This document shows positions 6,788 to 59,200 of a DNA stretch of 64,000 nt, in pieces. The notes beneath the pieces are model-generated. The model was not told the origin of the DNA. It ran no database searches and saw only the letters and a program-made list of their open reading frames with translations. Each line of letters starts with the position of its first letter. The stretch's first letter is position 1. The position numbers and the translations under genes are program-made. The stretch is from Panicum virgatum (lineage: Eukaryota; Streptophyta; Magnoliopsida; Poales; Poaceae). The stretch lies in the NCBI RefSeq assembly GCF_016808335.1, contig NC_053147.1, positions 21,438,913-21,502,912 on the forward strand, written 5' to 3'.

Positions 6788-6808
6788 AAGAAATCTTGTC
6801 CCCGAGAT

Positions 6809-8356: not shown

Positions 8357-8388
8357 GTTGACATAACTTCTTCTGCTCAGAGCATCTG

Positions 8389-10749: not shown

Positions 10750-10860
10750 CTGAACTGACAAAGACAGATAGATATCGAAAGATTAACTCAAGATTTCATA
10801 AGGATAGAACAAGGGGCATTATCTCGAAAGAAACCGCTGAATGATTATATCTAAGATTAC
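10750..10860 (-). other. Candidate 111-bp intron inside the Tekay gag
   Basis: On the minus strand the upstream gag frame reads to ...CTGAAGCAG, then GTAATC begins a segment that ends TTTGTCAGTTCAG just before GGGACTATG. Removing GT...AG (10860 down to 10750) joins the two gag halves in frame at the conserved gag core. The unspliced frame stops shortly after the donor. The splice is inferred, not observed. A simple insertion that disrupts gag is the alternative. Confidence 0.6.
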
Positions 10861-11376: not shown

Positions 11377-11935
11377 CTGATTTTGGACAAAAGATTTCAC
11401 GAGTAAGGATATAGCAGGAATAAATTCAGATGGATATGATAACTCTTTGCGGAAAAAAAACTCAGGCATGATAAAGTAGACAGGATAGAGTGGACTGTTT
11501 TACCCCCCAACGATCTAACTCATTTTATTAATTAGTTAACTTTAACATAAGAGTGATTTTCTTTAAACAAATTTAAACTACTAAGCTATGCAATCAGTCA
11601 AAAATCCAAATCAAACATGTAGCATAATAACAAGCAGACAATTTTCACAACTTAGCCGAGTTTAGCATCCGACTCGACTAACACAACGCGTCGCAAAACG
11701 TGCTATCATATTATTATAAAAAAGGTCACCTAGCTATACTCATGGTGGTCAGATGACTGATTCAGGCCAAAATCTACGAAAACTATTCTTCAGAGAGAGA
11801 AATCAAGGCAAGACGGATAAAAAGTCGAAGAAGTCAAGGGGTATAATAGTAAAATAGTTTCAGCAGGCAAGGATTGGAGAGAAAAAGTCCTACAACTCGA
11901 CCAGTTCTGTCTAGGCTTCGTCCTACAGTCGATAC
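11377..11935 (-). other. Tekay 5' leader between primer-binding site and gag
   Basis: About 560 bp of AT-rich untranslated leader. CCAAAATCAG directly before the gag ATG resembles a splice acceptor. No other feature was seen. Confidence 0.5.
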
Positions 11936-11948
11936 GGCTTTGATACCA
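11936..11948 (-). other. Primer-binding site, initiator tRNA-Met type
   Basis: On the minus strand TGGTATCAAAGCC follows the 5' LTR after a short GAG spacer. It is complementary to the 3' end of plant initiator tRNA-Met with one mismatch (A for G). Confidence 0.85.
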
Positions 11949-11951
11949 CTC

Positions 11952-14900: not shown

Positions 14901-15260
14901 GCGGTGTTGGGCCGGGGGAGCTGCTGGGCCCGCGCAGAAGGTTGGGCCGCGGGGAGGGAGGTGGGTTTGGGTTTGCTTTGGTTTTTTTTTCCTTTTCTAT
15001 TTCTATTTCTATTCTATTTCTCACTCAAGCTCAACTATTTGAATTCAAAAGAAATTTTGAATTCAAACCCCTATGAAATCAAACAATTAAAACAATGCAT
15101 CAGCATGAATGTATCAACAAAGTTAAACCTAAGAAAATTTTTAATTACTTGTGAAACAAAAGCTAGATTAAATGCAAGACTAACACAATAAACCTTAGAA
15201 AATTAAATAAAGCCAATTAAATTTATTGATAAATGCTGAAATTTAAATTAGGGTGTTACA
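11952..15260 (-). repeat. 5' LTR of the Tekay-type element
   Basis: 3309 bp with TGTAACACCC/GGGTGTTACA ends, almost identical to 3446-6772. It lacks an 18-bp GGGTTTGG-type stretch present in the other copy near 6462-6480. Most other differences noticed are single-base transitions. Confidence 0.95.
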
Positions 15261-15265
15261 GCGGG

Positions 15266-32994: not shown

Positions 32995-34879
32995 ATGGGG
33001 GAGAAGCGCGCGGTGCTGGTGGGGATCAACTACCCGGGCACCAAGGCGGAGCTCAAAGGCTGCCACAACGACGTCGCGCGCATGCGCCGCTGCCTCGTCG
33101 AGCGCTTCGGCTTCGACGAGTCCGGCATCCGCGTCCTCGTCGACGACGGCTCCGGGCCGCAGCCCACGGGGGCCAACATCCGGCGGGAGCTCCAGCGCCT
33201 CGTCGGGGACGCGGCGCCCGGGGACCTGCTCTTCTTCCACTACAGCGGGCACGGCGCGCGGCTGCCCGCCGAGACCGGCCAGGACGACGACACCGGGTAC
33301 GACGAGTGCATCGTGCCCTGCGACATGAACCTTATCACAGGTCAACTTTCTTTACTTGTGTGTCTTGTGCCTTCTGCTGCCATTAATTATAGGTAGGAAC
33401 AATCGAGAAATGGGGATCGAATGGTAGGTGGGATCGAGAAATGTCAGTGCATGGTTGGATTGGTTCCGCGTGACTAACGAATTCATATTGCATCAAACAT
33501 TTCTGTCGTCAGAAATGGATACTCCCTCTGGTCCTATTTATATGACGGTTCAGACATCAAGTTTAGCTTGCATTGCATTTAGCTTGAATTTGTTGTCTGA
33601 AAATTAGTGGAGGTAGTACAGTACTACTCCTACTATAGTATACAGGTAGCAGTAGCACAAAACATTTCAGATGTCTACTCATATTCCCGTACTCAGGATT
33701 TGGATGTTTGGAACACGAGTTTCTAGGATTCTGTGGTCAACCCATGTGGTTACGGTTAATTTATCAGAGCAATCTTGCATTGTAAATTACCCGACCAATA
33801 ATGACCATTCGACCATGGTGAGAAGGACGAGGTCAAACTAATATTTTTGCTAGTGACCATTTGATGACTGTGGAATATTGAAGGGTAGAACAAAAATCTT
33901 GTTAAATACCTGTCAGAAACACTGTGCCTGATTATAATGTTCTGGATGCCCATTCATGGAGGTAGAGTAGTAACTAGCTAATGTTTGTTTATGCACTGCA
34001 GACCAAGATTTCACGGAGCTTGTGCGAAAAGTCCCCGAGGGATGTCTGTTCACCATAGTATCTGATTCGTGCCACAGTGGTGGACTACTTGACAAGACCA
34101 AGGAGCAGATTGGGCACAGCACCAAGCAGAACCAGGCCGAGCGGTCTGATTCCGGCAGCAGCGGCGGCTTCCGTTCATTCCTCAAAGGGGCTGTCCGGGA
34201 CGTGTTCGAGTCCCAGGGAATCCACTTGCCCCACCGTAGCCACCGGCAGAGCGATGACGGGGAAGATGGTGACGAGGAGCCCCGCTACATCGACACAGCA
34301 GACGCCCATGTCAAGAACCGGTCGCTACCTCTCTCGACACTGATCGAGATGCTCAAGGAGAAGACCGGGAAGGACGACATCGATGTGGGCTCGCTCCGGC
34401 TGACGCTCTTTGACCTCTTCGGAGACGACGCTAGCCCCAAGATCAAGAAGTTCATGAAGGTCATGCTGAACAAGCTCCAGCAGGGCCAGCACGGCGGTGT
34501 CGTGGGCTTCGTGGGCGCCCTGGCGCAGGAACTCCTGAAAGCGAAGCTGGACGGGAAGCAGGAGCAGCTCGAGGCGGCCATGGAACAGGAGGTGCACAGC
34601 GAGCAGGAGGTGTACGCGGGGACGACGGCCAGGGTGCCGAGCAACGGCGTCCTGATCAGCGGGTGCCAGACCGACCAGACCTCCGCCGACGCGACCACGC
34701 CCAAGGGCTCCTACGGCGCGCTCAGCAACGCCATCCAGGCCATCCTCGCGGAGCACGGGACGGTGACGAACACGGAGCTCGTGATGAAAGCTCGCAAGAT
34801 GCTGTCGAGGCAGGGGTACACCCAGCAGCCTGGACTTTACTGCAGCGATGAGCACGCCAGTGTGGCTTTCATATGCTGA
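32995..34879 (+). CDS. Type II metacaspase A, 407 aa, two exons
   Basis: Ca2+-dependent cysteine protease cutting after Lys/Arg. In plants these enzymes act in the cytosol in cell death and in release of wound peptides. Exons are 32995-33340 and 34002-34879, with a GT-AG intron splitting the codon for Asp116. The p20 domain carries the catalytic His in HYSGHG (His86) and the catalytic Cys in DSCHSGG (Cys139). A long charged linker precedes the p10 domain ([20 protein letters not shown], then [11 protein letters not shown]), and the protein ends AFIC. Length matches the family and no prodomain is present, as expected for type II. The start is the first ATG in the GC-rich exon ([15 protein letters not shown]). 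It is the first of three same-strand paralogs. Sequence indicates an intact gene. Confidence 0.95.
33522..33616. mobile_element. Degenerate Stowaway-like MITE in the intron of metacaspase A
   Basis: Begins CTCCCTCTGGTCC after TA and ends GTGGAGGTAG before TA. The ends are only partly complementary, so this is a tentative call. Confidence 0.4.
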
Positions 34880-35757
34880 AGCATCGATTTATGTCGTGTC
34901 GACTTCAATCTTTGTACGCTGTTACTGTCTGTGGACTATGGAGTGTTGTGGGTTGGTGGTTACGCTATTGAGATCTGGGAATTAAAGTGTCTCTGCAGGT
35001 TATATTGAAGCACATTATCGGCACATTTCGTTTAAGTTTTGCTCTGCTCTCCTTTCACAGACTATAAGGGTCTGTTTGTTTAAACTGCAGGTTTTGAAGC
35101 TTTTCTTCTCGAGGAGAGAGTACTTTATCATGCTTGTGATGAGTGAATTGTCAACCGTGCGGTGTGATCGTGCGCTTGGTCTTTGGATTGCAGGTACACG
35201 GGCGTCGAGTGTCGACGGGGAGCTGCCGTGGAGGTGCTGTGGCCGATGGACCGGGCGGTGGACGGCGGTGAAGGGCAGCCGGGACTGGAGCTTGGACCGG
35301 GCGGCAGCTGTGACGTCCACTCCTGGATCGAGGGCGCAAGCGGCGACGGAAGGCAGGTTTCTTGGTTTGCGCCACAAAACCAAGGAGACGGACGGCGGTT
35401 GAAGACACCGAGTCGTGGAGGCACGGGCGTCGGTCTCGGGACTGACGGAGGCGACGGGCGTCGATGGCGTCTAGGGCCTCGCTGCGAGCGAGGAGGTGAC
35501 GGGCGTCGGGCGGCGTCTAGGGCTGTCAGAAGGCCGAGGCGGGAACGGCGTCTAGGGCCACGGCGCGGAGGCGGGAATCTTCCCGCGCGTGAGGTTTTGG
35601 CGGTTTTCTCAAAACCGGCCATCTACCCGGGTTTCGCGGACCCTCCAAAACTGCGGACTGGATCTTCATCAAGACGGCGGCATCGTGGAGAAGACTTCGT
35701 TTCGAAGAAAGAACCTCGGCCGTCGGATGAGATCGTTGTACAGGGGGTGCTGCATGC

Positions 35758-35856
35758 CAACCGGTCTGACCGGTCCCTGGCACCGGTCTGACCGGTCTAA
35801 CCAACCGGTCTGACCGGTCCAGCGTACCGGTCTGACCGGTCCCGCGGGTATAAATA
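35758..35856 (+). promoter_or_regulatory. ACCGGTCTGACCGGT repeat cluster and TATA box in the LTR
   Basis: Four copies of ACCGGTCTGACCGGT, two of them run together, lie between 35758 and 35840. TATAAATA follows at 35849-35856 (GGGTATAAATACCCC). The same arrangement recurs in the 3' LTR near 46410-46510. The close spacing to the TATA box suggests binding sites in U3. Confidence 0.65.
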
Positions 35857-36410
35857 CCCCTTCACTTGTGTTAGGTTAATTGCGGCTTTTGTAATCTGTT
35901 CGTGGACTCTCTGTTTCTCCAGGCCGCCGCCCCTGTGTTCTCCTCCCCTGTTTCTCTCTTTTGAGTTGATTTTGTCCATGGATTGTTGAAACCTTGTAAG
36001 GGATTTGATTGGGAAAGGAGGCCCTATCCTCCTCGTGCCCTCTGGGCTTTTGATTCGATTCAATCCCCTGGTTTTGTGCCTTGTGCAATGGATTTTTGAT
36101 TTCGTTCTTGGCACACTTGATTGAGAGGAGGCTACGAGTTCTTAGCTGTGATTCCCGTGCATCTAGCCCTGTCCTACTCCCTCTGCAATCACGAGCTCTT
36201 TCGAATTCGAGTTCTTGAGTTTTAGAGAAAACCCCAACCCTTTTGATCTCCTCTTGAATTCTCAAGAATCGTTGATCTTTAGGACGAGATCTTTTGGGGA
36301 TATGTTCACGGGGTAGGGGCGAACCAATCCCCCAAGTTTCACCGATTTTCGTGGTCGTTTGCTCGAGATTCAACGTTTGAATCCAATTTCTCGAGGGTTT
36401 TCTGGGTGCT

Positions 36411-36484
36411 ACCGGTAGCCACGACCGGTTAGACCGGTCCAGCGCACCGGTCAGACCGGTCGAGCGCACCGGTCAGACCGGTCC
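36411..36484 (+). repeat. Reverse-complement ACCGGTCAGACCGGT cluster near the LTR end
   Basis: ACCGGTTAGACCGGT and two copies of ACCGGTCAGACCGGT. This motif is the reverse complement of the upstream repeats, so the transcript could pair between the two clusters. It is partly changed in the 3' LTR near 47061-47120. Confidence 0.6.
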
Positions 36485-36719
36485 AGGCAGATCAGTTCTG
36501 CAATTTTCCCAATTCGCTTCCGATTTGCTTTGTGGTTTCGCTCGCTCGTTCGAGGTCTTTTGTGTTGGTTTAGCTTTTCCATAGCTATTCCAAACTTTGG
36601 ACAGAACGCTTGAGGGTTCGGGTGATTTTCGGGATATAGGCCGACGGTTTGAATTTCGAAAGAAATTTTGATCGGCTCCCATTCACCCCCCTTCTGGTCG
36701 CCGGCTTCGGTCCCACAAT

Positions 36720-36731
36720 TGGTATCAGAGC
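36720..36731 (+). other. Primer-binding site, initiator tRNA-Met
   Basis: TGGTATCAGAGC two bases after the 5' LTR end, a perfect match to the common plant primer site. Confidence 0.9.
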
Positions 36732-36781
36732 TCGGTTGAGGTTTTCAATACCTTAACCGGTTCGAAAACCACTCGGCGACC

Positions 36782-39568
36782 ATGGCGAGTCTTGGTAAGA
36801 TCCCAGTGTTTTCCGGCGAGGACTATGCCTACTGGAAGGTTCGCATGAGAGCCTTCCTGCAGAGCATGGGAGCCGAGGTCTGGGAGATTACCAAGAACCA
36901 GCTTTACGAGGTGCTAGCTGTTCGGACCACGCCTCTTCAGGTGACCCAGCACGAGACTAACGCCAAGGCCGTCAATGCCTTGTTCGCTGGCGTTTCTCGT
37001 GCGGAGTTCTCACGCGTCCAGGGTTTTCAGGAAGCCCACAAGATTTGGACGTGCCTTGAGAACTACCACGAGGGTACACCTCAGGTGAAGGCCAGACTGT
37101 TCGAGACTCACCGGCGTGAGTACGAGAACTTCACACAGGAGCCGGGTGAGAGCATTGACCTGATGTTCAGTCGTTTTCAGTCGATTGTGAACAAGGTCAA
37201 TGCGAACAGATCTGCTGGTGCCCTTGAGTACACAGAGCACGAGAAGGCCCTCAAGTTGCTTTACGCACTTGATCGCTCTGTGTGGGATCTCAAGGTGAAC
37301 ACCATCATTGAGTCTGCTGGCTATGAGACTCTGACGGTGAACGAGCTTTTTAGCAAGCTCAAGGCCACGGAGGTGGATAACCAGACACGAGCCAAGCTCA
37401 ATGGTGCCCCTCCTGCCAAGAGCGTTGCTCTTGTGACTGGCCCGGGTGGATCGAGCTCTAACGCTAACTCTGCTCTTGGCTTTTCTCTTGCCTCTTTGCC
37501 TTCTGTTTCAGATGAGCAGCTGGAGACGCTGGGCGACGACGACTTGTGCCTCCTCATCAGCAAGTTCCAGCGCGTCTACCACAACAGGCAGAGGAAGAAG
37601 AACCCCGGGTGCTACCACTGCGGCGATCTGAACCACTTCATCGCCGATTGCCCCAAGAAGTCCGGCGGTGGCCAGAACAACTCCTTCGACTACTACCGCC
37701 ACCGCGACCGCGACGAGGGAGGCTCCAACAAGGAGCGTTGGCGCCACAAGCACCGCAGTCGTGACCGGGGAGGACGCTTCGACAAGGAGTCACTCAAGAA
37801 GCGCTTCCAGTACAAGGCCAAGAAGCGGGAGAAGGCCTTCCTGGCGCAGCTCAGCGACCTCGACAAGAGCTCCGACACTGACCGCTCTTCTTCACCGACC
37901 TCCGACGATGATGACAAGAAGAAGAAGCGGGACAAGAAAGCCACCGGCTTCATCAGCCTTTGCTTGGCGGCCGGTCGGCGCAAGAGCTTCTGCACCATGG
38001 CGGGCGAAGCCAATGGTGCTCGTGCGTCTTCGGGTGGACACGCTACACCGACGCACTCCGGCTCTTCTCCTGGATCCGAGAGCGATTCAGAGGTAAACTC
38101 CACGATCGACCTGCTTGATACAGAGGTTAGGGAGTTGTACGCCGCTCTCGACAACCAGAAGAGGCTGCTTAAGGAAGCAGCTAGAGAGCGTAGAAAGCTT
38201 AGGGCTGAGCTGGCTTGTGCTAGAGAGAAGTCTAGTGAGGATGAGTGCGCTGGCTGCATATCTCACATGAACGATCTTGTTGCTCTCCGTGTCAAGCATG
38301 ATGAGAACGTCGCGGACTTAGATGTTGCTAAGATTTCGCTTGCTGACGTTTCTCATGAGCTCGCTAAGGCCAAGCATGAACTAGAACTGGTTAAGGATGC
38401 TCCTATTGTTAGCGATGTGCTTGAATGCGAGGAGTGTCCTATCTTTAAGTCCGATCTAGCTTCGTTGCAGTCCAAGTTTGCTACTGTTGTGTGCGAGCTA
38501 GAGGAGATGAAGTCTAGGCCAGTTTTGCTTGGTGCTTGTAAGCTTTGTCCCACGCTTAGGTCGGAGCTAGAGGAGAAGAACGCTTTGATCAAGTCTTTTG
38601 GAAAGACTAAGGTCATAGAGTCTAGCCCACCTATTGACTGCTCTGTTTGCCCTGATTTGATCTCTGATTTGAATAATCTTGCGGTTGAGAAAGCCAACCT
38701 GGAGAATGAGAATACCTATCTTAGGGCGATTCTTAGTTGGGTTTCTGCTAGTGAGCCGCAGTTGGGCATGATGATCAAGCAGTTCAAGCGTGGTGATGGG
38801 TTTGGGGTCGGTTACACATACACGAAGTCAGACTTTGACAGGTTGTATGGTAAGATTGACAAGGCTGCTGGAAACACTGCTAGCACGAGCACGCAGCCTT
38901 CGCTTGTTGACCCCGCGGATGGTGTGCTTAAAGAACCACCGAAAGCACCTCCGCAGAAGCAGGTTTGGGTTCCAAAGCCCAATGAGCTGAGGAACTCCCT
39001 CGACACGCTCCCTGCTGCCATAGCCCAGGTTGCCCAGAAGAAGAGGGCTGCTCCTCCCCGTCCGCAGGCTAGGCCTCCTCCTCCCAAGCGTGAGGTGAGG
39101 TACCACTGCGAGTTCTGTGACAGGGAAGGTCACCTGGAGGAGTTTTGCTTCAGGAGGAAGCGGCCTGTGAGGAGAGAGCAGGAGAGACGGAACGCGGACA
39201 TGTACTCTGCTCGGGTGCATGGTCCTTCTCGGCGTGGTGATAGGCGAGATGCTAGGGCGCGCCGTGTAGGTGGAGGTCAGGGAGACGGTGGTGGTTACCG
39301 TGCTCCAGCGGGTGGTCGCTTTGCCGGCCGTGCTCCTGGTCATTTTCAGTACGGCTATGGACCACGGGACCGAGGCTTTGGAGGAGGTTTTGAGACTCCA
39401 CGCTTTCCTCGCGGTGGTGATCGTCAGCCTCGCAGTAGACGGGACAGGGGATACGCTTTGCCTGACTTTGGTTACCCTTCTGTAGAGCAAATGGCTCGTC
39501 ACTGGTTTGCTTCTCACTTTGCTAACCCCAGTGTCGAGACGTTTGCTCCCTCTATGTCTCATTGGTGA
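36782..39568 (+). CDS. Copia gag polyprotein, 928 aa, the only ORF of the element
   Basis: Forms virus-like particles and packages RNA. The start MASLGKIPVFSGEDYAYWKV lies 65 bp after the LTR. The N-terminal third is the copia gag core (residues about 1-240: YWKVRMRAFLQ, YEALTVNELF-type helices). A CCHC knuckle (CYHCGDLNHFIADC) sits near residues 277-290, followed by an Arg/Lys/Asp-rich stretch. A heptad-rich coiled-coil region spans about 440-690, with paired Cys motifs (CEECPIF, CPTLRSELEE). A second CCHC-like motif (CEFCDREGHLEEFC) lies near 776-789, before an Arg/Gly-rich tail. At over 900 aa it is longer than ordinary copia gags. The frame is uninterrupted and ends SMSHW, just where protease would begin in a full element. 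Confidence 0.9.
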   Translation: MASLGKIPVFSGEDYAYWKVRMRAFLQSMGAEVWEITKNQLYEVLAVRTTPLQVTQHETNAKAVNALFAGVSRAEFSRVQGFQEAHKIWTCLENYHEGTPQVKARLFETHRREYENFTQEPGESIDLMFSRFQSIVNKVNANRSAGALEYTEHEKALKLLYALDRSVWDLKVNTIIESAGYETLTVNELFSKLKATEVDNQTRAKLNGAPPAKSVALVTGPGGSSSNANSALGFSLASLPSVSDEQLETLGDDDLCLLISKFQRVYHNRQRKKNPGCYHCGDLNHFIADCPKKSGGGQNNSFDYYRHRDRDEGGSNKERWRHKHRSRDRGGRFDKESLKKRFQYKAKKREKAFLAQLSDLDKSSDTDRSSSPTSDDDDKKKKRDKKATGFISLCLAAGRRKSFCTMAGEANGARASSGGHATPTHSGSSPGSESDSEVNSTIDLLDTEVRELYAALDNQKRLLKEAARERRKLRAELACAREKSSEDECAGCISHMNDLVALRVKHDENVADLDVAKISLADVSHELAKAKHELELVKDAPIVSDVLECEECPIFKSDLASLQSKFATVVCELEEMKSRPVLLGACKLCPTLRSELEEKNALIKSFGKTKVIESSPPIDCSVCPDLISDLNNLAVEKANLENENTYLRAILSWVSASEPQLGMMIKQFKRGDGFGVGYTYTKSDFDRLYGKIDKAAGNTASTSTQPSLVDPADGVLKEPPKAPPQKQVWVPKPNELRNSLDTLPAAIAQVAQKKRAAPPRPQARPPPPKREVRYHCEFCDREGHLEEFCFRRKRPVRREQERRNADMYSARVHGPSRRGDRRDARARRVGGGQGDGGGYRAPAGGRFAGRAPGHFQYGYGPRDRGFGGGFETPRFPRGGDRQPRSRRDRGYALPDFGYPSVEQMARHWFASHFANPSVETFAPSMSHW

Positions 39569-41898
39569 TGCAGGTTCGTGGCCTGGAGAACAAGTGCTCC
39601 ATGGATCTTGGTCTTATGCAGGTTTGATCAAGACTTGATGGTTCTCCAAGGCTGATGGATAGCCCGTGGTGGTTTGTGTATCATTTGTACATTTGAGTTT
39701 GTCTTTTGAGTTCTTTGTACATTTTCTGCGTGTGACATATTGTAGATTCTACTTCTCTACTTGCTCTGCTTGCTAGGTCTGTACTTGTGCTTTGGTGGAC
39801 TAGCCACTCTGTACGCTAGCTTTTGTGGTTTCCATATTGTCATGACTTTTGCTAGCTCAGGGTATGTGCTTTGTACAGTCCCCTCATGCTTGTGTAGCTT
39901 TTGCTCCTTAGTTCTGGCTGCTAGCTCAAGTATCTTCTTCATATAGTCTTGCTGCATTGGTTCATGTTGTTGAGTGCCTTTAGATTATTCTAGGAATATC
40001 TTTTGTCTTGATATGTTCTAGAGTGTTTTTTGGTATACTTTTGCATGTAGCTTGACTAACACCTAACCGTTTGCTTGAGTCTTGCTCTGGATCTTTGGTG
40101 TTTGCTATTTCCTTGTGTCCTAGCTTCTTTTGTGCTAGGTATCACTTGTTGAGGGGGAGCTCTACCTCAGGTGACGATGATGATCCGGAGTTACTGCGCC
40201 GGCTGCAGGCTCCGGCCCCTTCTGTTTCGACTACCTCAGCTCAGGAGGACGATCCAGTACCACTACTTCCACTTCGATCGTTCACCTCTACAAGAACTTG
40301 TTCGAGCAGAAGGTGGACCCGCAGAGGACGCAGGGGAGGTGACCTCGAGCTTGCTATGCTCTAGGTCCAGCGGGATCTTCATCGAGGTATGTGAGCGTTC
40401 GGCTTGTTCGTTTTCCTCTCAGGATGGACTTGTGGTTTTCTGATTGTTGCCTTTTCCATGGTACTCAGTTGGATCCATTTAGTCTAGTCCTGTGTGTCTT
40501 TGAGCCGTTGTATTTGCTGACTTTTCTTTGGTTAGATTTGTAGATTTTATTTGCTTCTCTTGGTTTTCTAGGTTTGGTAGTTGCATTGTGCATATGCATT
40601 GTACATGTTTGTATTTTGCATTGTCTCACTTGCACTAGCATTCTTGTATACTTTGCTATGATCTTCTAGTGCCTGCTAGTGTGAGTTGATAAACTTGATC
40701 ATGTATAGCTTGCTCCACTGTGTATATGCCATCATCTGAGTTAAGCTATTTTGATTTGAAAATCTGAAAACATGATCACCCTGTCTTGGCTACTAGCATG
40801 TTAGGGCGTGTTGATGTGCTTTGCTATCTTATTCATGCTAGTGTGGCTTTTCATTCAGCAATTCATACTTGAAATGATCTAAATCTGATAAAATTGCTTG
40901 AACTATTCTTGAAATGGATTGAAAAGATCCAGGTGGGATTGCTTGTCGCACTGATCGAGCTTTCGGGACGGCTCACTTTGCACTTGTGAGAACCCGGGCA
41001 AGGCTGTGCATGACTGAAACAAGTGCTTTAAGCTTCTGATTGTCTTTTGACATAGACTTGGTCTCGTTGCTAAGTAAAGCATAACAAGCTTTCAACCCCT
41101 GGCATTAAGAATTGATTGCTACAAATTGATTGAAAAATGAATGTTGGCAACTTGTTTTGGCTGTTTTGGCTCACCTGTATGAGTTTGAGTAGCACTGCTT
41201 TCCATTTCCTACTTGTTGGTGCTAGATCATGGGTGATGCTTTTATTTCTCCTAAACTGAACTTGCCTAGCTTTAGACTGATTTGATATACCCTGTTGAGC
41301 TAGATGCAGGTCCGGTTTATGGATGCACACGCTTGAGACTAGATGTTGCTCATATCTTTGTATCCCTGAATGCTTTCACTTACACCTCCAACATTGCATT
41401 CATTGCATAGCATCTATTCAGGGGGAGTCTCAGCTTCAGGGGGAGCTTTAGGTCTTTTTAGCCTTGATGTGTGCATGTGCCAACAAGGGGGAGAATTTTG
41501 AGAGAAGTGATCGAACAAGGGGGAGACTTGTTTGTTTGATTTTTGAAAAACTTGTTGTGCACAGGGCTTTGAGAGTGCATCATTTTGGGAGAGTTGCACT
41601 TGTGAGAGGGAAAAATTTTGCTTGGGGAGTTTCTGCTTTGGTTTTGGCTCCTGGTTTTCTCGTTTTCCCTCTGCTGCTTGCATGACTGCGTCGAGCGTTA
41701 CCTCTGTCTTTGAGGAGTCATGTTTTGGCTTTTGATCGATTGCGTCGAGCCGTTGCCCTTGTCTTAGGGGATCGATCTTTGCTTGAGTATGTCACTGTTC
41801 TTGCCTTTCTGAGCCTTTTGTCACTTGCTTGTGCTTCTTTGTTCTTTTCTTGTTTCACTTCTCTTGGTTCGTTTGTGGTGTGTTGACAATGCACTCAT
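39569..41898 (+). other. Non-coding internal region replacing pol
   Basis: T-rich sequence with no pol domains in any frame. The first 50 bases (CGTGGCCTGGAGAACAAGTG) look like the remnant of the gag-protease junction. Short runs of AGGGGGAG occur at about 40152, 41420, 41438, 41485 and 41517. A GC-richer block at 40150-40390 could derive from another gene, but it is not recognised. Confidence 0.6.
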
Positions 41899-41910
41899 CA
41901 AGGGGGAGAT
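41899..41910 (+). other. Polypurine tract of the copia element
   Basis: AAGGGGGAGAT immediately before the 3' LTR start TGAGGAACGAG. Confidence 0.85.
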
Positions 41911-44900
41911 TGAGGAACGAGAGTACTCTATCCTGCTTGTGATGAGTGAATTGTCAACCGTGCGGTGTGATCGTGCGCTTGGTCTTTGGATTGCAGGTAC
42001 ACGGGCGTCGAGTGTCGACGGGGAGCTGCCGTGGAGGTGTTGTGGCCGATGGACTGTGCGGTGGACGGCGGTGAAGGGCAGCCGGGACCGGAGCTTGGAC
42101 CGGGCGGCAGTTGTGGCGTCCACTCCTGGATCGAGGGCGCAAGCGGCGACGGAAGACGGGTTTCTTGGTTTGCGCCACAAAACCAAGGAGGCGGACGGCG
42201 GTTGAAGACGCCGAGTCGTGGAGGCACGGGCGTCGGTCTCGGGACTGACGGAGGCGACGGGCGTCGACGGCGTCTAGGGCCTCGCTGCGGGCGAGGAGGT
42301 GACGGGCGTCGGTGTAACACCCCAGGTGTTAATCACCTGTAGTTATGGTTAATCGTGTATTTGATATCGTTGTTAGCACTAACCTTGCATGCAGCAAAAT
42401 CTTTTAATTATATTTTTTGCTAGCTTGTTAACACATGAAATGATGACTAATTTTCAAATCCAATGAAACATGCTTTAAAAATAATTTTTAAATTCTTGCT
42501 CAAATAAACTTTTGCCTAAAAACAAAGTTGTAGAGTTTGGAATGGCGAAAAACTTTCGTGTTTATGGTTTTTCAAGTTTCAGTACAAAAATTTGATGAAA
42601 ACTTTTAATTCTGCTTTGTATAGGACATTAATGCTTTGGTTTTAACATTTCAAATTTTGAACCATGATTTGATCTTCAAATAAAGTTTTGCCTAAAACAA
42701 AAGTTGGAGGAAATCAAATTTTGAACAACTTTCATTCTTGGAATTTTTCGAGTTTCTATATGAAGTTTTGAGTTTTGGACGGTCAAAATCGAGCTAAGTT
42801 TCGTTGAACCATTTTCTCCCGGTGTTTATCTGCTCCCTTCCGCCACCCATGGCCACGTGACGCGCGGCGAGCACCTGCTCGCCGACGTGCTGTGCGCGCC
42901 ACGCGCCGGCACCCGTGGCAGCCTGGGCACGAGCCTTCGCGACCTCCCCGGCCTTATCCTCTCTCGGCATCTCTATCCACTCCCTCTCCCCCTTCCAGTT
43001 CCTCCCTCCTCTAGCTTGGTCGAGCCGAGCAGAGCCGCTATCGCCGCCGCTCCGGCCATCCTGGGCCACCGCGCCTCAATTCACTCCGCGAGGAGCCGCA
43101 CCACATCCACCCGCACCTCCTCCCGCAACCTCAGCTCCCGGACAAGCTCTCCCCAGTTGGAATCGACACCCCCGCCCACCGGTCTCCATTAAAGTTTCGT
43201 CGAAACTCAGGCCGTCGCCGAACTCCATCTCTCGGCCACAGTTTCCACCAACCAACGGCTAGAATCGACTCCTCTCGACTCGCTGAAGCTCGTGCTCTCC
43301 ACGTTCCATCGCGTTCCACAAGTTTCCATGCTCGTTCATGGCGCCGCCACCACTGTCGCTCACTGCTCCCGCCGCCGGCGCCTCTCCGGTCGCCCCCAAC
43401 CCTCAACGAGACCACCCAGAGGTAGCTATCGTGTCCCTCATGCTCCCCACCCCTCCCCGGCCGCCGGGATGGCCTCCTCTTGCTGGTACAAAGCTCCCCG
43501 CGCCTCTCTGTTCCAAAAATCGCGACCAGGGGCTCCACACAAGAATTGGAACAAGTCCAGGGGGTTTTCTGCGAAGTCTATGACTCATATGAATAGTGCT
43601 GCGAAGGGTTCCTTTGTAATACATTGGCTGAAAATTTGAAAAATCGTAGTAAATCATAGAAAAATCAGAAAATTACAAACTAAAATTTGTTGGATTCCTT
43701 GTTCTAAGATCTACAACTTTCCTTGCAGGTTGATCTTAAGTTTCTAAATAGTTTTTGCTCTAGTTTAAATGTTAGTTTAAGTGGTTGCAAGCTTTGAAAA
43801 TGCATAGTAAATAGTAGAAAAATGGTAAAAAGGTAAAACCAGTTGGGATAGCTTTGTTTTGACATGTATAACTTAGGAAAAATATTTAAGCTGCTGGTTG
43901 TTTAATGTTTCTGTGATATTTTGATTTAATCATGAATAATGCTTGTTTTAGCTTGTTTATTTAATATCTGCAGTTTTGGAAGTTGAAAAATTATGAAATT
44001 TATGCAATAGCTTACTCTTTGCATGTTTAGTTCACTGTAAAAATTTCATGTCCAAAACCTATGCACATGTGTGTAAATCTATTTTTGTTCAGCTTGTCTT
44101 GTTTAGGCTAAAATAAATGCTTTATGTTAGAAATAAATGTTGGTAATTTGTTTTTACACTCTTTATCAGTATCTTGTCATGCTAATTAAGTTGTGCTATC
44201 AGGTTCTTGCTGCATGACAAGTTTTTACATTTATATGGTTCCTAGATATAGTTTTTCTTTTGTTATTGCTAAGAAATGTCTTCCTGCATAGATAATTGCG
44301 GCAACTTGTTTTGTTCATGTGCTAACCTTGTGAAATCATTTAGAACTAGTATGTTGGTGGTTTTTATAAAACTTGCTTATGTTGGCTTGTTAGCTAAATA
44401 AAGTCTTTAGTTGCTCTCTCGTGCTTTGCTTACCATACTTAATGTTCCTTGCTATCTTTCTATGGAAGATTTGAGTAGTATCTAATTAAACACCTTTTGG
44501 TGCTTAAATCGGTGTGGTGTGACTCGGTTTATCTTGTATGCCTTTTAAATGCCTCGTGTGTTGTTTTCTTTACGTTCATGCATTTGCATCGTTGCATATC
44601 ATATAGGTACGCTAGATGTACGACGCGTGGAGCTAAAGGATAAAGTCGGAGCCGGACCCGAAGATGATGTTTGGTTGACATATCCAGAAGATGGATGGAT
44701 GGATCCCGATGTGCACGACCGAAGGCAGGTGCTCGTCAAGCGAGTGTCATCTAACCAACACTAACTAATTCAGTGTTAATCCCAGGCAAGCCCCGGAGCA
44801 TAACCCTTAACTTCAGTATTCAATGTTTATTTATATAATTATTGTGCATTTACGTTCTAGGAGTTGATGGGAACCGTAGATGCATGATCCCTAGGTTTCC

Positions 44901-47353
44901 TCAGTTACTCCACTAGTGTGCAGGTCGTTAGTATTGCAATGCTTAATTAGGGCTCGGTAGAAGTCGAGTGATTCCTGTCACTCGCGAGCTATAGGTCCTG
45001 GTTACTTATGGAAAAGTGGTTTGAGAATGAATCTGTGAGGAAAGAAAAATGGAGACCGGGCGGAGAGGAATTGGATTATGGATATGGAATGTTTGGAAAG
45101 TGGACCTCCGCCTGTGTCGATTGAGGACCGTTCCGTTGTTGGCAGTGCTGATCGAGGATTGAACAGTACTAACCACATACCGGAGGTAGGAGGTAGTCGA
45201 AACCGGTAAGCTGTGTACCACCTTACAGCGGTGATTTGAATTCCGCCATGCTACGCTGGGCGTGGGAGTTGGCGGGTGTTGGATAGGATGCCGCCTCCGG
45301 GTTCTCCGGGAGTTCACTGCGAGGGGCCCATCACCTGGGTTTTAGCAGGCGTAGTTCAGATGCGTGGTAATGTGGAAACAGTTGACGCGCGTGGCCCGAC
45401 AGGGCTTGCATGTGTCGTGTGAGTTAGGTCCACCTTGCAAGGTTAAATCGGATCGATTCGCCGTGACTCGCGGTTATGAGAGCCTTGATCTCTTTGTCAC
45501 ATCGTAGTAAGAAAGTGGAATGAAAGAGGAATGGAAAAGATTGGTTTGTGAGTTACTGAAGAATAATCTGCTCCACCATGTGTGCTCTAGATGTTTAGGC
45601 GAATTTAGATAATACTCGCTGTACTAAATGGAGCTAAAATATTGAAAGTAAGGATTCACTCCTAGCAGCATTTTAGCAAAAGAACTCCAGAGCCAAAAAG
45701 CTTGGCATGTCTAGATAATGGGCTAAGTATACCCAAAGTCGGGTAAGTCTTGCTGAGTATTAGTATACTCAGGGTTTGTTATCACCCTGTTTTCATGTAA
45801 CTGCTGCTGGCTGGAGCTAACCAGGATTCACATCGGTGGGCTCGATGTGACGTCCTCACGTCATCGTAGTAATCATTGTTTTTCTGAACTCAACTTCTAA
45901 TTAGTTTCCGCTGCATTTTGAACTCTGATATTTTACGTAAACTTGTGTGTAAAACTCCACTTTGTAAATTAACTTTGAGAAATTTTGTCTGCTTGTAATC
46001 ATCTGTGCTCGTCTTCGTGCGAGACTTCCAGTGTTTTTCGATCCTTAAACCGACAGACGTCCGGATTACACCGTTTTAAGTGCACAGTAACTTGATTAAA
46101 CATTAAGATGATAGTTAGCGCACTTAAGCCGGTTTAATTTGGGCGGTCCTGTTACAGTCGGGCGGCGTCTAGGGCTGTCAGAAGGCCGAGGCGGGAACGG
46201 CGTCTAGGGCCACGGCGCGGAGGCGGGAATCTTCCCGCGCGTGAGGTTTTGGCGGTTTTCTCAAAACCGGCCATCTACCCGGGTTTCGCGGACCCTCCAA
46301 AACCGAGGACTGGATCTTCATCAAGACGGCGGCATCGTGGAGAAGACTTCGTTTCGAAGAAAGAACCTCGGCCGTCGGATGAGATCGTTGTACAGGGGGT
46401 GCTGCAGGCCAACCGGTCTGACCGGTCCCTGGCACCGGTCTGACCGGTCTAACCAACCGGTCTGACCGGTCCAGCGTACCGGTCTGACCGGTCCCGCGGG
46501 TATAAATACCCCTTCACTTGTGTTAGGTTAATTGCGGCTTTTGTAATCTGTTCGTGGACTCTCTGTTTCTCCAGGCCGCCGCCCCTGTGTTCTCCCCCCT
46601 GTTTCTCTCTTTTGAGTTGATTTTGTCCATGGATTGTTGAAACCTTGTAAGGGATTTGATTGGGAAAGGAGGCCCTATCCTCCTCGTGCCCTCTGGGCTT
46701 TTGATTCGATTCAATCCCCTGGTTTTGTGCCTTGTGCAATGGATTTTTGATTTCGTTCTTGGCACACTTGATTGAGAGGAGGCTACGAGTTCTTAGCTGT
46801 GATTCCCGTGCATCTAGCCCTGTCCTACTCCCTCTGGAATCACGAGCTCTTTCGAATTCGAGTTCTTGAGTTTTAGAGAAAACCCCAACCCTTTTGATCT
46901 CCTCTCGAATTCTCAAAAACGTTGATCTTTAGGACGAGATCTTTTGGGGATATGTTCACGGGGTAGGGGCGAACCAATCCCCCAAGTTTCACCGATTTTC
47001 GTGGTCGTTTGCTCGAGATTCAACGTTTGAATCCAATTTCTCGGGGGTTTTCTGGGTGCTACCGGTCAGACTGGTAGCCACGACCGGTTAGACCGGTCCA
47101 GCGCACCGGTCAGACCGGTCCAGGCAGATCAGTTCTGCAGTTTTCCCAATTCGCTTCCGATTTGCTTTGTGGTTTCACTCGCTCGTTCGAGGTCTTTTGT
47201 GTTGGTTTGGCTTTTCCATAGCTATTCCAAACTTTGGCCAGAACGCTTGAGGGTTCGGGTGATTTTCGGGATATAGGCCGACGGTTTGAATTTCGGAAGA
47301 AATTTTGATCGGCTCCCATTCACCCCCCTCTGGTCGCCGGCTTCGGTCCCACA
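41911..47353 (+). repeat. 3' LTR of the copia element, split by a solo LTR
   Basis: Parts are 41911-42312 and 46162-47353, about 1594 bp in total, closely matching 35110-36717. It ends GGTCCCACA before the target duplication CTTCT. Its own TATA box is in GGGTATAAATACCCC near 46498-46512. Confidence 0.9.
42313..46156 (+). mobile_element. Solo LTR of a gypsy (Tekay-like) element, 3844 bp
   Basis: Starts TGTAACACCCCAGG and ends GGTCCTGTTACA. It is flanked by a perfect 5-bp duplication GTCGG (42308-42312 and 46157-46161). There is no internal coding region. Termini resemble the Tekay LTR at 3446, but the body differs. It is most simply a product of recombination between two LTRs. The AT-rich interior has no gene. 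The exon-like GC stretch at 42850-43260 is an artefact of composition or captured sequence. Confidence 0.85.
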
Positions 47354-51268: not shown

Positions 51269-52631
51269 ATGGGGCAGGCGGCCATGGGGCGGAAGCGCGC
51301 CGTGCTGGTGGGCATCAACTACGTCGGCAGGGGCGACGACGAGCTCAAGGGCTGCCTCAACGACGTGGCCCGCATGCGCCGCTGCCTCGTCGACCGCTTC
51401 GGCTTCGACGGCGCGGACATCCGCGTGCTCGCCGACGCCGACCCGTCCACGCCGCCGCCCACGGGGGCCAACATCCGGCGGGAGCTCGAGCGCCTCGTCG
51501 GGGACGCCCGCCCCGGGGACACGCTCTTCTTCCACTACAGCGGCCACGGCCTGCAGCTGCCCGCCGAGACCGGCGAGGACGACGACACCGGGTACGACGA
51601 GTGCATCGTGCCCTGCGACGGCAACCTCATCAAAGGTACTCAGGGTCTCCCTTTGCTGCCGTGCCGTTCGATTCGTTGTTTTGAGTCGACATTTTTCAAG
51701 ATGACATTAATTTTCTCGTATGCGCTCCAATGCAGATCATGATTTCAAGGAACTCGTGGCAAAGGTCCCTGATGGCTGCCTCCTCACCATAGTCTCCGAC
51801 TCATGCCACAGTGGAGGCCTGATCGACAAGGCCAAGGAGCAGATTGGGAACAGCACCAAGCAGAACAGATCCCAGCAGACGGCGGATCAGCAAGAAACGC
51901 GGCCGCCTTCCGGCACTTCCCTCCTAGGCACCATCCACGACGTGTTCGAGTCGCTGAGCAACCACCTCCTTCGCTTCGGCTCCCAGCAGAGCGGCCACGG
52001 CCAGAGCAACGGATCAACCGAGCTGGACATGAAGGCAGAGCTCACCACCGTCACCGCACACGCCAGCGTAAAAAGCCGGTCGCTGCCTCTCTCGGCGTTC
52101 ATCGAGATGCTCCGGGAGAACACCGGGGAGGACGACGTCGGCGTGGGCACGATCCGGGCGACGCTGTTCCGCCACTTCGGCGACGACGCGAGCCCCAAGG
52201 TGAAGAAGTTCGTGCAGGCCATGGCGGCAGGCAAGCTCCGGCGGCGCGACGGCAAGCTGCCGGAGGGAGGCGACGGGGGCCAGGTGGAAACTCTCAGCCG
52301 GGCCGCCTTGGCCTCGGGACAGGAGGCGCGCGGCGTCAAGGAGGTCTACGCCGGCACGGCGGCGAGCGTGCCCCTGCCTCGCAACGGCGTCCTGATCAGC
52401 GGCTGCCAGACGGACCAGACCTCGGGGGACGCGACCACGGCGGAGGGCGTGTCCTACGGCTTGCTCAGCAACGCCATCCGGACCATCCTCGCCAGGAACA
52501 AGCACGGGGCGGTGACGAACAGGGAGCTGGTGCTCAAGGCGCGGGAGCTGCTGTCCAAGCAGGGGGCCACTGCTCAGCAGCCGGGGCTTTACTGCAGTGA
52601 TGAGCATGCCAGTGCGCCTTTCATATGCTGA
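51269..52631 (+). CDS. Type II metacaspase B, 420 aa (or 415 aa), two exons
   Basis: Same enzyme family as gene A. Exons are 51269-51635 and 51736-52631, and the short 100-bp GT-AG intron is at the position conserved in A and C. Two in-frame starts exist (51269 and 51284). The second gives [13 protein letters not shown], matching the paralogs, and may be the true start. Counting from it, catalytic His88 lies in HYSGHG and Cys141 in DSCHSGG. The p10 part has [20 protein letters not shown] and [18 protein letters not shown]. The linker is longer and diverged from A. No stops or frameshifts. Upstream lie only transposon remnants, so the promoter probably sits within 51008-51268. Confidence 0.95.
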
Positions 52632-53663
52632 AGGCTGAAGCATTGGTTGCCTCCTCCTGTAGACTGCAACCTCTGTACAATGTGGCGACTACTCTTGTTG
52701 AACTTGAGAATGGTACTCTCTATGCAAAAATTTCATTCTTTGATGATCTATTTAATCATGTAATTGATACGTTTGTTTTCAAGCTTTCTAATACAGTAAA
52801 GAAAAATGGCAAAAGTTGTTTCCCCTTTAGATAACTTACAAAACTTCATTTTCATTGCAAGTGCGCACTATGACATATCCTAAGAATATCACTACGGGAC
52901 TGTCATATCAAGACGTCATCAAGTAGATGGCTACCGCCATGATTATGATTGATCAGCAGCCAAGAGTATTGTCTGTGTCAATGCTAATCTAATTGATGAT
53001 GGCCATTCCACTCAAATGGTGATTCAATTCAAATTCAATCGCAAATTATTTTATAAACACACTCCAATTTTAGAAGAAAAAAGAACAAGTAATGGGTTTT
53101 CGATCGGCCTAACCGGATCCAACAATTGCTTCCACGGTGCACGGCCACTTTACCCGACGTTGACCCGTGTCACCAGCCAATACAAAAAATGGCGGGCGGT
53201 GGTGGAGGCAATGAGCACCTCGCGCGACAGCACTCAGGAGCTCCACCAGCCCAGCTTGACTGAGGTGCCAGGCAAGAACGCCAATCGGGCAGGTCGTCGC
53301 CACCGTACCAACCAAGCGCGTGGCCGAACGCCGACGCCGCCGCCGCCGCCCCCGTCGAACGTGCCGACGGAAGCGCGTGGCCGGCGGCGACGATGGGGCA
53401 GAAGCGCGCGGTGCTGGTGGGCATCAACTACCCGGGCACGGACGGGGAGCTCAAGGGCTGCCTCAACGACGTGGCCCGCATGCGCCGCTGCCTGGTGGAC
53501 CGCTTCGGCTTCGACGAGGGCGGCATCCGCGTGCTCGCCGACGCCGACCCGTCCACGCCGCCGCCCACGGGGGCCAACATCCGGCGGGAGCTCGAGCGCC
53601 TCGTGGCGGGGCCGCGCGCCGGCGACACGCTCTTCTTCCACTACAGCGGCCACGGCCTGCAGC

Positions 53664-53985
53664 CAGGGGCGGATGCACACCCCGGGCCATGGCCCGGGGT
53701 TCGGCCCAAATTTTGCATGTTTTAGATATTTAATATATCTTTTTCTACATTATCATTGCTACATGTTTTAGATATTTAATATATCTTTTTCATTTTGCAG
53801 TAGTTTCTACCTCTGGACTTGGATCAATTGCTGAAGAAGAATAAATATATTACTTTCAGATGGCGTTTTTTGTATGTTATTTATCTTTCCGTTTATATTT
53901 TCATGTATCTTTTGAACTGTGAGTTTGTGAACGTCTATACTTAAAACTCAGCCCGGGGTTCGACTCAATCCTTGTTCCGCCACTG
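53664..53985. mobile_element. hAT-like MITE inserted in metacaspase C exon 1, 322 bp
   Basis: Ends CAGGGGCGGA and TTCCGCCACTG are near-perfect inverted repeats. The 8-bp target duplication CCTGCAGC is perfect (53656-53663 and 53986-53993). AT-rich core, no coding capacity. Confidence 0.92.
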
Positions 53986-54432
53986 CCTGCAGCTGCCCGC
54001 CGAGACCGGGGACGACGACGACACCGGGTACGACGAGTGCATCGTGCCCTGCGACCTCAACCTCATCAAAGGTGCGCACCCCCTTCCCTTCTTGGCACCG
54101 AGTGTATTTTGTTGCTCGTCTCTGCTTCAAATGGACGACAGTAGCTGTCGTTCAGACTTTCAGAGGCACGCTGCTTGTATCTGATTGAGTGATTGTTACG
54201 TTTTTGAGGTATGGATATGGAATTTCGGTTGGGTGTATGAAAAGAATATGATTTGACTGTTCAAATTTGAACGTGTGGGAGATGCGTTCGGCAAATCGAA
54301 CAATATGGACTTGAAAATTCTTGAAATGGAGAGGCTGAACTTTTGACCGAAGCCGGATTTCAGAAATGAGCTTAGTATTATTCTTACCAGTGTTTCCGTA
54401 TTTAATTACCGAGAGGAGTGCGATGTTAATTA

Positions 54433-54622: not shown

Positions 54623-56289
54623 TGACCAAGCACATCTATATCTATGCACAATACTATATAAAAGGTGAAACAATTGAAATTCGTTCTCACCAAGATTAGA
54701 TCTACCGTACCCCTCACGAAGATCCCATTTGTTAGGCTAAAAAGTTTGACAAAATGGGTGGAGACCTATTTTTTAATATAAAAAAAATATTTCTACCAAA
54801 AGCCAATACTTTTTACACCAGCAATTTCTTATACCCACCTCTTGTACCCGCGTATTATTTTCATTTGGTACACACTTTACTTTGAGATGATAATAATTGA
54901 TATTATTATTTTATGGAATGAAAAAAAAGACGTGTATTACTTTATAAATAACATTGTTGTTTGTTGTAAGAAATATTAATACTGTGATACGCACATCTCC
55001 ACTAGTAGTTAAAAAAAACAACAACAACAATGGCCACTTAGATCAAGCTGGGGGCATAAAATGTAACTTTTGAGCCAAAAGTCTCTTTGTTCCAACTATT
55101 CAGCCTCTGATTCGAACAAAAAGTCGAGCAAAGGGCGGCGTCGCGTCGAACAACATGGCCACGTTAGAATCTGCCAAATTCACGACCTTCCTGATTCATG
55201 ATTTTTTTTTGAAAAATTCATGATTTTTGCTCCCTTGCAATAATCTGCTGCTGCCTGATTGAGCTCGCCCGTCATGATCTTTCTAATGTCCGTGCACCCG
55301 CGCTGCAGATCAAGACTTCACGGAACTCGTGGCGAAGGTCCCCGACGGCTGCCTCTTCACCATGGTCTCGGACTCGTGCCACAGCGGCGGCCTGATCGAC
55401 AAGACCAAGGAGCAGATCGGGAACAGCACCAAGCAGAACAAGAAGAACCAGCAGCACCGGGCCGGAGACACGAAGCCTCCATCCGCTTCCGGAACCTGCA
55501 CCTGCTCCTGCTCCTCCCTCCTGCGGATCATCCGTGGCGCGGTCGAGTCCCTGGGCGTCCACCTCCCCTGCCATGGCCGCCGCCATGGCCACAAGCAGAG
55601 CACCCAAACCGGCGGCAAGGAGACGGACGCGAAGACGGAGGCCGAGCCGTCCACGATCGCCAGCGCCACCACCACCAGCAGCCGGTCGCTGCCGCTGCCG
55701 ACGTTCATCGAGATGCTCCGGGACAAGACCGGGAGGCACGACGTCGGCGTGGGGTCGATCCGCACGACGCTGTTCCACCACTTCGGCCACGACGCCAGCC
55801 CCAAGGTCAAGAGGTTCGTGAAGGTCATGGTGGGCAGGCTCCGGCACGACGGCAAGCTGGACGGCGAGGAAGCGGAGCAGTCGCACGCCCTCAGGGCGGC
55901 CCTGGATCAGGACGTGCAGAGCGTCGAGGAGGTGTACGCCGGGGCGGCGGCGGCGGCCAGGGCCGGGCTGCCCCGGAACGGCGTCCTGATCAGCGGGTGC
56001 CAGACGGACGAGACCTCGGCGGACGCGACCACGCCCGACGGCGTGTCCTACGGCGCGCTGAGCAACGCGATCCAGACCGTCCTCGCCGGGAGCAAGCGCG
56101 GGGCGGCGGCGGCGACGAACCGGGAGCTGGTGGTCAGGGCGCGGGAGCTGCTGGCCAAGCAGGGGTACACGCAGCAGCCCGGGCTCTACTGCAGCGACGA
56201 GCACGACAAGCTGCCCTTCATCTGTTGAACTGTGTGCGAGTGATTGCTCACGTGGAATTCTCAAGCCAATCTATCGTTGTGTTACAGAA

Positions 56290-59200
56290 GAACTAGTAAG
56301 ATGGCCCGCACTAGTATTTTATTTATTTTTTAGATCCTTTTAACTTAATAGAATAGATGTATTTGGTAATTTATTTACCGTACCTCTCGTTCGCTCTCGT
56401 TGAATACTATCTGCAGCTTTTTATATATAGAATATTCAGTTGAGAATTCAACCCCATAAACTTATGACAACGTGATGATGATGGACGCTTTTCTGATATC
56501 TGCTCCGTAAATTCTCTGTAAAGTTTTGGATTCACAAAGCTAGCGGACATCATGGTGGGTGGTGTGATGGCCGATCACATATTCCTGCAAGAGCTCGCCA
56601 TCATGCTCTTACGCAGATTCAGCCTGACTGACTATAGTTTGGCGTCTTAGCTTGGCTTAATGCACTGGAGAGGTTCAAAATAGAAATCATTTGAGACATT
56701 GAGCTAATATAATTGCTGTTGATTGGCCCTGTGAGTGTTTTATTGTAAGTGATATGTATTGTTATCCGATGTAGCTTTTTTTCCAACTCAATTTCCACTG
56801 CTGATATGATCCCGTGTGGTTGTCAGTCGTCAGACGCGAGTTACACTCCACTTCATGTATCATTATCATCACCGACATCATTGATGAGAATTCTTGAAAC
56901 CAATGTCCATAGAATCTGCTCTTAGCGTTTTTTTATTTGTGGCAGTACATATGTTTACAATTTTGATTAATTATTATTTTTCTCCTTTAAATGATATTTA
57001 GATTAGATGGACACGTTTTTCCTTATCATATGGGTACGAACCAATTTTTCCTTACAATATTTGATATGTACAAAATGTTTAGCTATTTATTAACCATATT
57101 TAATATACTATTTGAATTATTTTTACGACCTAATCATTAATAGCTTCTGCGCCATTCAATTTTGTATCTAGGAGCAAAATAACACGCACCAGCACTCTCC
57201 CTGACCATATGTAGTCTTTTCTGAAACTGAGTTTCTAGACCTTGGATGTAAGTACCATCCCTTGAAAAAAATGCTCTTACACAGATTCATCCTGCTGACT
57301 ATAGTTTGCCCTCTTAGCTTGGCTTAATGCACAGGAGAGGTTCAAAATAGAAATCATCTGAGACATTGAGCTAATATAATTGTTGTTGGTAGGCCCTGTG
57401 AGTGTTTTATTATAAGTGACATGTATTGTTATCCGACGTAGTTTTTTTCCTACTACATTTTCACTGCTGATCTGCCGTGTGGCTGTCAGTAGTCGTCAGA
57501 CGTGAGTTGCACTCTACTTCATGTATTAGTATCATCACCGACATCATCATTGAGAATTCTTGAAATCAATGTCCGTAAAATCTGCTCTTAGCGTTTTGTT
57601 TGTTTGTTTGTGGCAGTACATATGTTTACAATCTTGATCAATTATGATTTGTCTCCTTTAATTGATATTTAGATTAGATTGACACTTTTTTTCTTGTCAT
57701 ATTGGATACAAACCTATTTTTTCATACAAGTACAAAATGTTTAGCTATTTATTAACCATATTTAATATACTATTTGAATTGTTTTTATCGATCTAAGCAT
57801 TAATAGCTTCTACGTCATTCAGTTTTGTATCTAGGAGCAAAATAACACGCACCAGCACTCTCCCTAACCATGCGTAGTCTTTTTTGAAACTGAGTTTCTA
57901 GACTTTGGATGTAAGTACTGTCCATTGAAAAAAAATGCTCTTACAAAAAAATACTCTTACGCAGAATCAGCCTGACTGACTATGGTTTGGCCTCTTAATT
58001 TGGCTTAATGCACCAGAGAGGTTCAAAATATAAATCATCCAAGACATTGAGCTAATATAATTGTTGTTGATAGGCCCTGTGAGTGTTTTATTGTAAGTGA
58101 GATGTATAGTTATCCGATGTAGATTTTTTCCTACTCAATTTCCACTGCCGATCTGATCCTGTGCGGCTTTTAGTTGCCAGACGCGAGTTACACTCTACTT
58201 CATGTATAAGTATCATCACCGACATCATCGATGAGAATTCTTGAAACCAATATCGGTAGAATCCGCTCTTAGCATTTTTTTTGTTTGTGGCAGTACATAT
58301 GTTTACAATCTTGATGAATTATTATTTGTCTTCTTCAATTGATATTTTAGATTAGATTGACACTTTTTTGCCTTACCATATTGGATACGAACCAATTTTT
58401 TCTTACAATATTTGATATGTACAAAATGTTTATTGCCTTAAAACCGAGGACTGCATTTTTTATAAAAGAAATCTATTTTCTCTACATATTTCTTTTGTCC
58501 ATCGATACAATTTAAATCCATAGATATCGATAGTGTACAATTTTTCTCTTTCTTCTCCGATTGTTGTTAGTGATTTTGGTCAGTTATTTGCTATGGACTC
58601 TCTATTATTTAACTATTTGCTTTCCCACGTAGAAATCAGCTATCAATTTCCTTATTTTTAATTTTTAATTTACATATATAGAAGTAGTAGTTAGTATGGA
58701 CTGACTCTTGATGTTATTCTAGACTGTTATTTGCTTTGGGTTCTCTATTATTTAACTATTCGCTTTCCCACGTAGAAACCAGCTATCAATTTTTTTATTT
58801 TTTATTTTTAATTTATATATATAGTAGTAGTTGGTATGGACTCTTGGTGTTATTCTAGACCGTTAGATCTTCATAAAATCCGACAGTGCAATTTTTTTCT
58901 CTTTTTTAGATTAATGTGAGAATTTGTAGACTCTCTCGGCGAACGTGGCAGTACATATGTTTACAATCTTGATGAATTATTATTTGTCTTCTTCAATTGA
59001 TATTTTAGATTAGATTGACACTTTTTTTGCCTTATCATGTTGGATACGAATCAATTTTTTCTTACAATATTTGATATGTACAAAATGTTTATTGCCTTAA
59101 AACCGAGGACTGCATTTTTTATAAAAGAAATCTATTTCCTCTGCATATTTCTTTTGTCCATCGATACAATTTAAATCCATAGATATCGATAGTGTACAAT

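Follow-up and report, generated by a model that had tools for sequence, protein, structure and literature searches.

A probably recent hAT-type, MITE-like insertion as a probable null or near-null allele of a third tandem metacaspase gene in Panicum virgatum

A 322-bp insert lies in exon 1 of the third of three tandem metacaspase genes of Panicum virgatum, which raises the question of whether this gene (metacaspase C) can still give rise to a protease and whether the interrupted form is one allele among others. The window, i.e., the whole 64-kb stretch of DNA that was analyzed, also holds metacaspases A and B; both are found upstream of C and in the same orientation, both have the His and Cys motifs, and neither carries an insert at the matching site (0/2). 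The trio is most likely located on chromosome 3 of subgenome N. The reading that we favor, with a probability of about 0.78, is that a recent and segregating insertion of a hAT-MITE-like element has created a null or near-null allele of metacaspase C, the loss of which is cushioned by the paralogs. The positions of all features are collected in Table 1.

The host gene has the layout of a type II metacaspase, i.e., a p20 region with the His/Cys dyad, a long linker (assigned from the full-length match to relatives) and a p10 region. The acceptor AG of exon 2 is at 55308, and the frame is open from there up to the stop codon at 56226-56228. The solved structures closest to the N-terminal part of the protein are those of Arabidopsis AtMC4 (PDB 6w8s and 6w8r), which is likewise a type II metacaspase with a p20 dyad, a linker and p10, and in which His86 and Cys139 form the catalytic dyad (excerpts of PMC7206013). 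These residues correspond to His87 and Cys140 in the 422-aa frame of metacaspase C; unlike AtMC4, the switchgrass allele is interrupted between these two residues. The region downstream of the gene contains a 681-bp unit repeated in tandem about 2.7 times with 85% matches (56606-58409); this array begins about 380 bp past the metacaspase C stop codon and has related pieces up to about 59252.

Table 1. Features of the metacaspase locus and of the insert (positions are those of the window).
Feature	Position	Strand	Basis
Metacaspase A, two exons, open, 407 aa with intron 33341-34001 (one pick among several open options)	32995-34879	+	sequence comparison
Metacaspase B, two exons, open, 420 aa with intron 51636-51735	51269-52631	+	Pfam and sequence comparison
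Metacaspase C exon 1 before the insert: codons 1-90 and first base of codon 91, catalytic His87	53393-53663	+	Pfam Peptidase_C14, E 9.3e-17
Left target site duplication copy CCTGCAGC, 8 bp	53656-53663	.	read and computed
hAT-type non-autonomous element, MITE-like, 322 bp	53664-53985	.	computed
Terminal inverted repeat CAGGGGCGGA	53664-53673	+	pattern search and end comparison
Perfect 22-bp palindrome ACCCCGGGCCATGGCCCGGGGT in the element	53679-53700	.	repeat analysis
18-nt direct repeat, 89%, common to both element ends	53692-53709 and 53951-53968		repeat analysis
Potential GT-AG intron, 294 nt, whose removal would eliminate the four stops and add 12 residues PGADAHPGPWPG	53699-53992	+	intron enumeration, predicted
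Two identical 30-nt direct repeats inside the element, 46 nt start to start	53716-53791	+	repeat analysis
First in-frame stop, TAG, codon 111	53723-53725	+	frame translation
Terminal inverted repeat CAGTGGCGGA (other end, reading inwards)	53976-53985	-	end comparison
Right target site duplication copy CCTGCAGC, 8 bp, perfect	53986-53993	.	read and computed
Expected read-through at an insert-free site CCTGCAGCTGCCC			
Metacaspase C exon 1 remainder, donor GT at 54072	53994-54071	+	translation
Metacaspase C exon 2: catalytic Cys140 and p10	55309-56228	+	Pfam Peptidase_C14, E 8.7e-11 on 55287-56228
Start of phosphoglycerate kinase gene, downstream of metacaspase C			Pfam PGK, E 1.1e-20

The insert was confirmed both by direct reading of the letters and by computation. 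Terminal inverted repeats of hAT elements start with CAG, and the two features by which this superfamily was tested, an 8-bp target site duplication and short CAG-initial terminal inverted repeats, are both found here: the duplication is perfect on either side, and the two termini match at 9/10 bases with one mismatch. The terminal motif alone is a weak indicator, with two matches in the window and at least two also in 17 of 100 shuffles. The combination with the duplication is far more specific, as a perfect 8-bp duplication borders a single one of the 12,036 CAG...CTG pairs in the window (separated by 100-799 bp, with the first CAG not within the final 850 bases), and that pair delimits the insert. 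The GC content is 37% for the element and 26% for its stretch 53710-53950, vs. 66-74% for the surrounding exon, and when folded as single-stranded DNA only one of 100 shuffles of the element folds equally well or better (z -2.47). At 322 bp there is no room for transposase coding, and the element is short, AT-rich and non-autonomous, as is typical of MITEs. It is likely that a transposase acting in trans inserted it into metacaspase C by a cut-and-paste reaction, which would have duplicated the 8 bp of target now seen at both junctions.

Exonic insertions of hAT MITEs are a known kind of event. The insertion in metacaspase C is a new instance of this well-known mechanism, i.e., the disruption of an exon by a hAT MITE, and the general surprise is therefore low. 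Plant hAT-superfamily MITEs such as BniHAT-1 and BniHAT-2 of Brassica nigra are likewise short, AT-rich and non-autonomous, with terminal inverted repeats of at least 10 bp (12 and 25 bp in these two) and an 8-bp duplication, although at 666-673 bp the Brassica families are longer than the switchgrass element (passages of PMC7385995). Maize Ds1 and Ds-like elements, which have a similar size (about 400 bp) and an 11-bp terminal repeat in the Ac/Ds group, share with the present element the 8-bp duplication, the ability to sit in exons and splice sites near a terminus, which are only potential ones here (parts of PMC3260210 and PMC5432752). MITE families are further marked by many copies of uniform size; no second copy was found within the window, where only pieces of 16-22 nt and the element's own internal repeats were recovered. 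Searches of plasmid records, a collection unsuited to plant repeats, did not find the element, a 24-nt exact pattern had no matches in viral contigs (uninformative for a plant), and a search of the window against Rfam gave no matches at gathering score. No published report of the insertion allele was found among the papers listed for metacaspase with Panicum virgatum; in passages of PMC10572835 the word metacaspase occurs in the reference list only.

The element sits after codon 90 (Gln), three codons past His87 of the YSGHG motif and before Cys140. Insert and duplication together add 330 bp, which is divisible by three, so that the reading frame further downstream is retained. Four in-frame stops are introduced, at 53723, 53777, 53801, and 53942 (codons 111, 129, 137, and 184), the first of which begins 60 bp into the insert. 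The precise hAT-like insertion with a perfect duplication, its place three codons after the catalytic His motif and the stop within about 60 bp, as described in an earlier note on this DNA, were thus all borne out. Translation of the unspliced allele would end after 110 residues with PGADAHPGPWPGVRPKFCMF, 20 residues past Gln90, giving a product without Cys140, linker and p10. A stop codon far upstream of an exon junction predicts nonsense-mediated decay, and with 346 nt between the premature stop and the end of exon 1 the mRNA is a predicted target and would be degraded. With a protein that ends before the catalytic Cys and an mRNA that is predicted to decay, the allele is probably null or nearly null. 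The earlier note went further and called the gene knocked out; the disruption after the catalytic His and the four stops agree with this, but as one GT-AG choice (53699-53992) could remove all four stops, a knock-out is what we infer rather than observe.

When the exon-2 frame of metacaspase C was used as query, two Panicum virgatum proteins were recovered. P0001 (PVAP13_3NG079558, 422 aa) is the intact form, and P0002 (420 aa) is 89% identical to P0001 and, judging from this divergence, would be the subgenome-K copy. When the flanks are joined without the insert and the intron between 54072 and 55308 is removed, a 422-aa protein results to which P0001 is identical over all residues, including 90/90 of those that precede the insertion, P0001 itself being uninterrupted. 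On this evidence the window very probably represents 3N of Panicum virgatum or a closely related haplotype. The identity agrees with the claim that all other exons, frames and splice sites of the gene are open. None of 1,406 single introns within exon 1 (GT-AG, GC-AG, or AT-AC ends; at least 61 nt) yields P0001 from the window DNA, and when exact excision is slid over the duplication, none of the nine offsets has GT-AG, GC-AG, or AT-AC ends. Precise splicing of the insert, tried as a candidate, was rejected on these two counts. Given the exact match of the flank-joined frame, and with no intron tried that yields the protein, it is probable that an allele free of the insert exists. P0001 would most simply derive from DNA that lacks the insert; on the strength of this identical public protein the insertion would be recent and would segregate against intact alleles. 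The young age proposed before is thereby supported, and the allele is probably polymorphic.

It is on the second of these points, the polymorphism, that the proposal is only partly sustained, as P0001 may stem from a forced gene model that bridges the insert. According to this alternative P0001 was modeled on the same DNA, the annotation jumping the insert by a non-canonical gap, and the AP13 reference haplotype would carry the insertion, which might even be fixed; polymorphism would then not be shown. The exact equality of P0001 with the flank-joined frame is expected from such a model, the AP13 annotation used EXONERATE to align proteins and transcripts, and the outbred AP13 was pruned to a single haplotype (sections of PMC7886653). 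The same work includes a set of switchgrass structural variants, with insertions and deletions of 100-1,500 bp at a minor allele frequency of at least 0.1. On the other hand non-standard intron ends are needed, as none of the nine offsets offers a usable dinucleotide pair, and a model built on transcripts from another allele would itself imply that an intact allele exists. We consider a forced model unlikely; it concerns the polymorphism only and is compatible with a null allele. In favor of a misassembly, an independent copy of the junction was not seen. However, transposition, unlike misassembly, leaves an exact 8-bp duplication and hAT-type ends within a coding frame that is perfect elsewhere, and an artefact or chimera is very improbable.

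Splicing of part of the insert is the main alternative to a null allele. Exact removal of the insert via canonical sites is impossible, but with one GT-AG pair the insert could be removed inexactly while the frame stays open and no residue of the gene is lost: with the donor at 53699, which follows 35 nt of the element, and the CAG acceptor at 53992, which lies in the right target duplication, a 434-aa metacaspase would be made. In this form the insert would in part be a new intron, in the manner of exonic maize Ds1, and the 12 extra residues would be placed just after the catalytic His loop, so that activity is perhaps altered or lost. The enumeration concerned introns within exon 1. A total of 125 of the 1,406 single introns give an open frame, 26 of the 125 retain HYSGHG, and three of the 26 are GT-AG, all with donor 53699; acceptors 54004 and 54037 keep the frame at the cost of gene residues, which leaves 53699-53992 as the sole GT-AG intron that keeps the His motif, an open frame and all downstream residues. 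Combinations of two GT-AG introns were open in 70 of 509 cases, and the first 20 of these 70 all use donor 53699 and insert these 12 foreign residues or more. The GC-poor interior (26%) within a GC-rich exon (66-74%) is also consistent with an intron. Exonic maize Ds1 is reportedly the subject of Wessler (1991), to go by the title. For Ds1 in exons, splice donors at a distance of 12, 22, or 33 bp from the element's end are described, as are acceptors (parts of PMC5432752), and some Introners elsewhere add residues upon splicing (excerpts of PMC9860276). Against these points the donor GGG/GTTCGG matches the consensus at 4/9 positions, where those of the three metacaspase genes reach 6-7, none of the 174 relatives listed contains the strings of the 12 residues that were looked for, an addition of this size so close to the catalytic His is likely to be detrimental to activity, and the survey of Introners reports none in land plants (passage of PMC9860276). 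Partial splicing as a new intron is rather improbable. It is tempting to speculate that the insert is a nascent intron and that the allele yields a full-length metacaspase with a 12-residue loop by the catalytic His, i.e., a segregating protease variant from one transposition; this is more doubtful still.

The truncated product has also been proposed to act as a p20 decoy, and would then have to be stable and to hold back or inhibit the paralogs. The 110-codon open frame is present and its first 90 residues are those of the metacaspase N-terminus, but the product lacks Cys140, linker and p10, the early stop, with 346 nt of exon 1 still to follow, predicts decay of the mRNA, and strings of the tail were looked for in the 48 short relatives matched by the 110-aa query and found in none. 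Such a decoy is very improbable, and this part of the earlier proposal found little support.

The favored reading also fits the relatives, which were compiled as 174 distinct proteins from three overlapping sets of matches (the best 120 of 993, 48 of 48, and the best 120 of 995). The motif H(Y/F)SGHG is present in 121 of the 174 relatives listed, and none of these 121 has an insertion after it; the residues that follow are the standard xx(L/V/I/T)P in 117, and the other four differ by substitutions only. Element-derived strings were looked for and found in none of the 174. The 53 relatives listed without the motif are mostly partial proteins, at least one (P0125) having lost it by substitution, and they are therefore uninformative on the insertion site.

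It is likely that the open paralogs A and B together with P0002 cushion the loss of metacaspase C. The simple picture is complicated by paralog B, which looks intact although no Panicum virgatum protein among the best 120 of 995 matches is more than 61% identical to it (P0001 61%, P0002 57%); the closest of these 120 are proteins of 304 and 175 aa with 94-96% identity. Metacaspase B may be absent from the annotated reference or from its haplotype, or be hidden in a cluster, as the list is made up of cluster representatives and is of limited length, so that a record of B could be concealed. Three further proteins of 157 aa each (P0121-P0123) combine an exon 1 that is 93-98% identical to metacaspase C (53393-53662) with a B-like GNLIKG end, which hints that there is a fourth copy or that the paralogs have undergone gene conversion.

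Should an intact allele segregate beside it, the insertion would amount to a natural knock-out of a single metacaspase gene in a grass that is polyploid and outcrossing, and could help to reveal redundancy between tandem copies and between subgenome copies. It is in addition a small natural test of the splicing of exonic hAT elements. With two intact-looking paralogs and a further Panicum virgatum copy its importance is modest.

The surroundings of the trio are rich in other elements. Metacaspases A and B are separated by a Copia-type element (35111-47353), which looks nested and contains gag at 36740-39565, direct repeats of 1.2 kb that are 97.4% identical (35505-36717 and 46157-47353) and a further pair of 400-bp repeats (35111-35509 and 41912-42312). 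A full-length LTR retrotransposon is found on the minus strand at 3441-15265; it is of the Ty3 type by domain order (Pfam reverse transcriptase, RNase H, integrase), and has LTRs of about 3.3 kb that are 98.3% identical, ends TGTAACAC...GTTACA and a GCGGG duplication.
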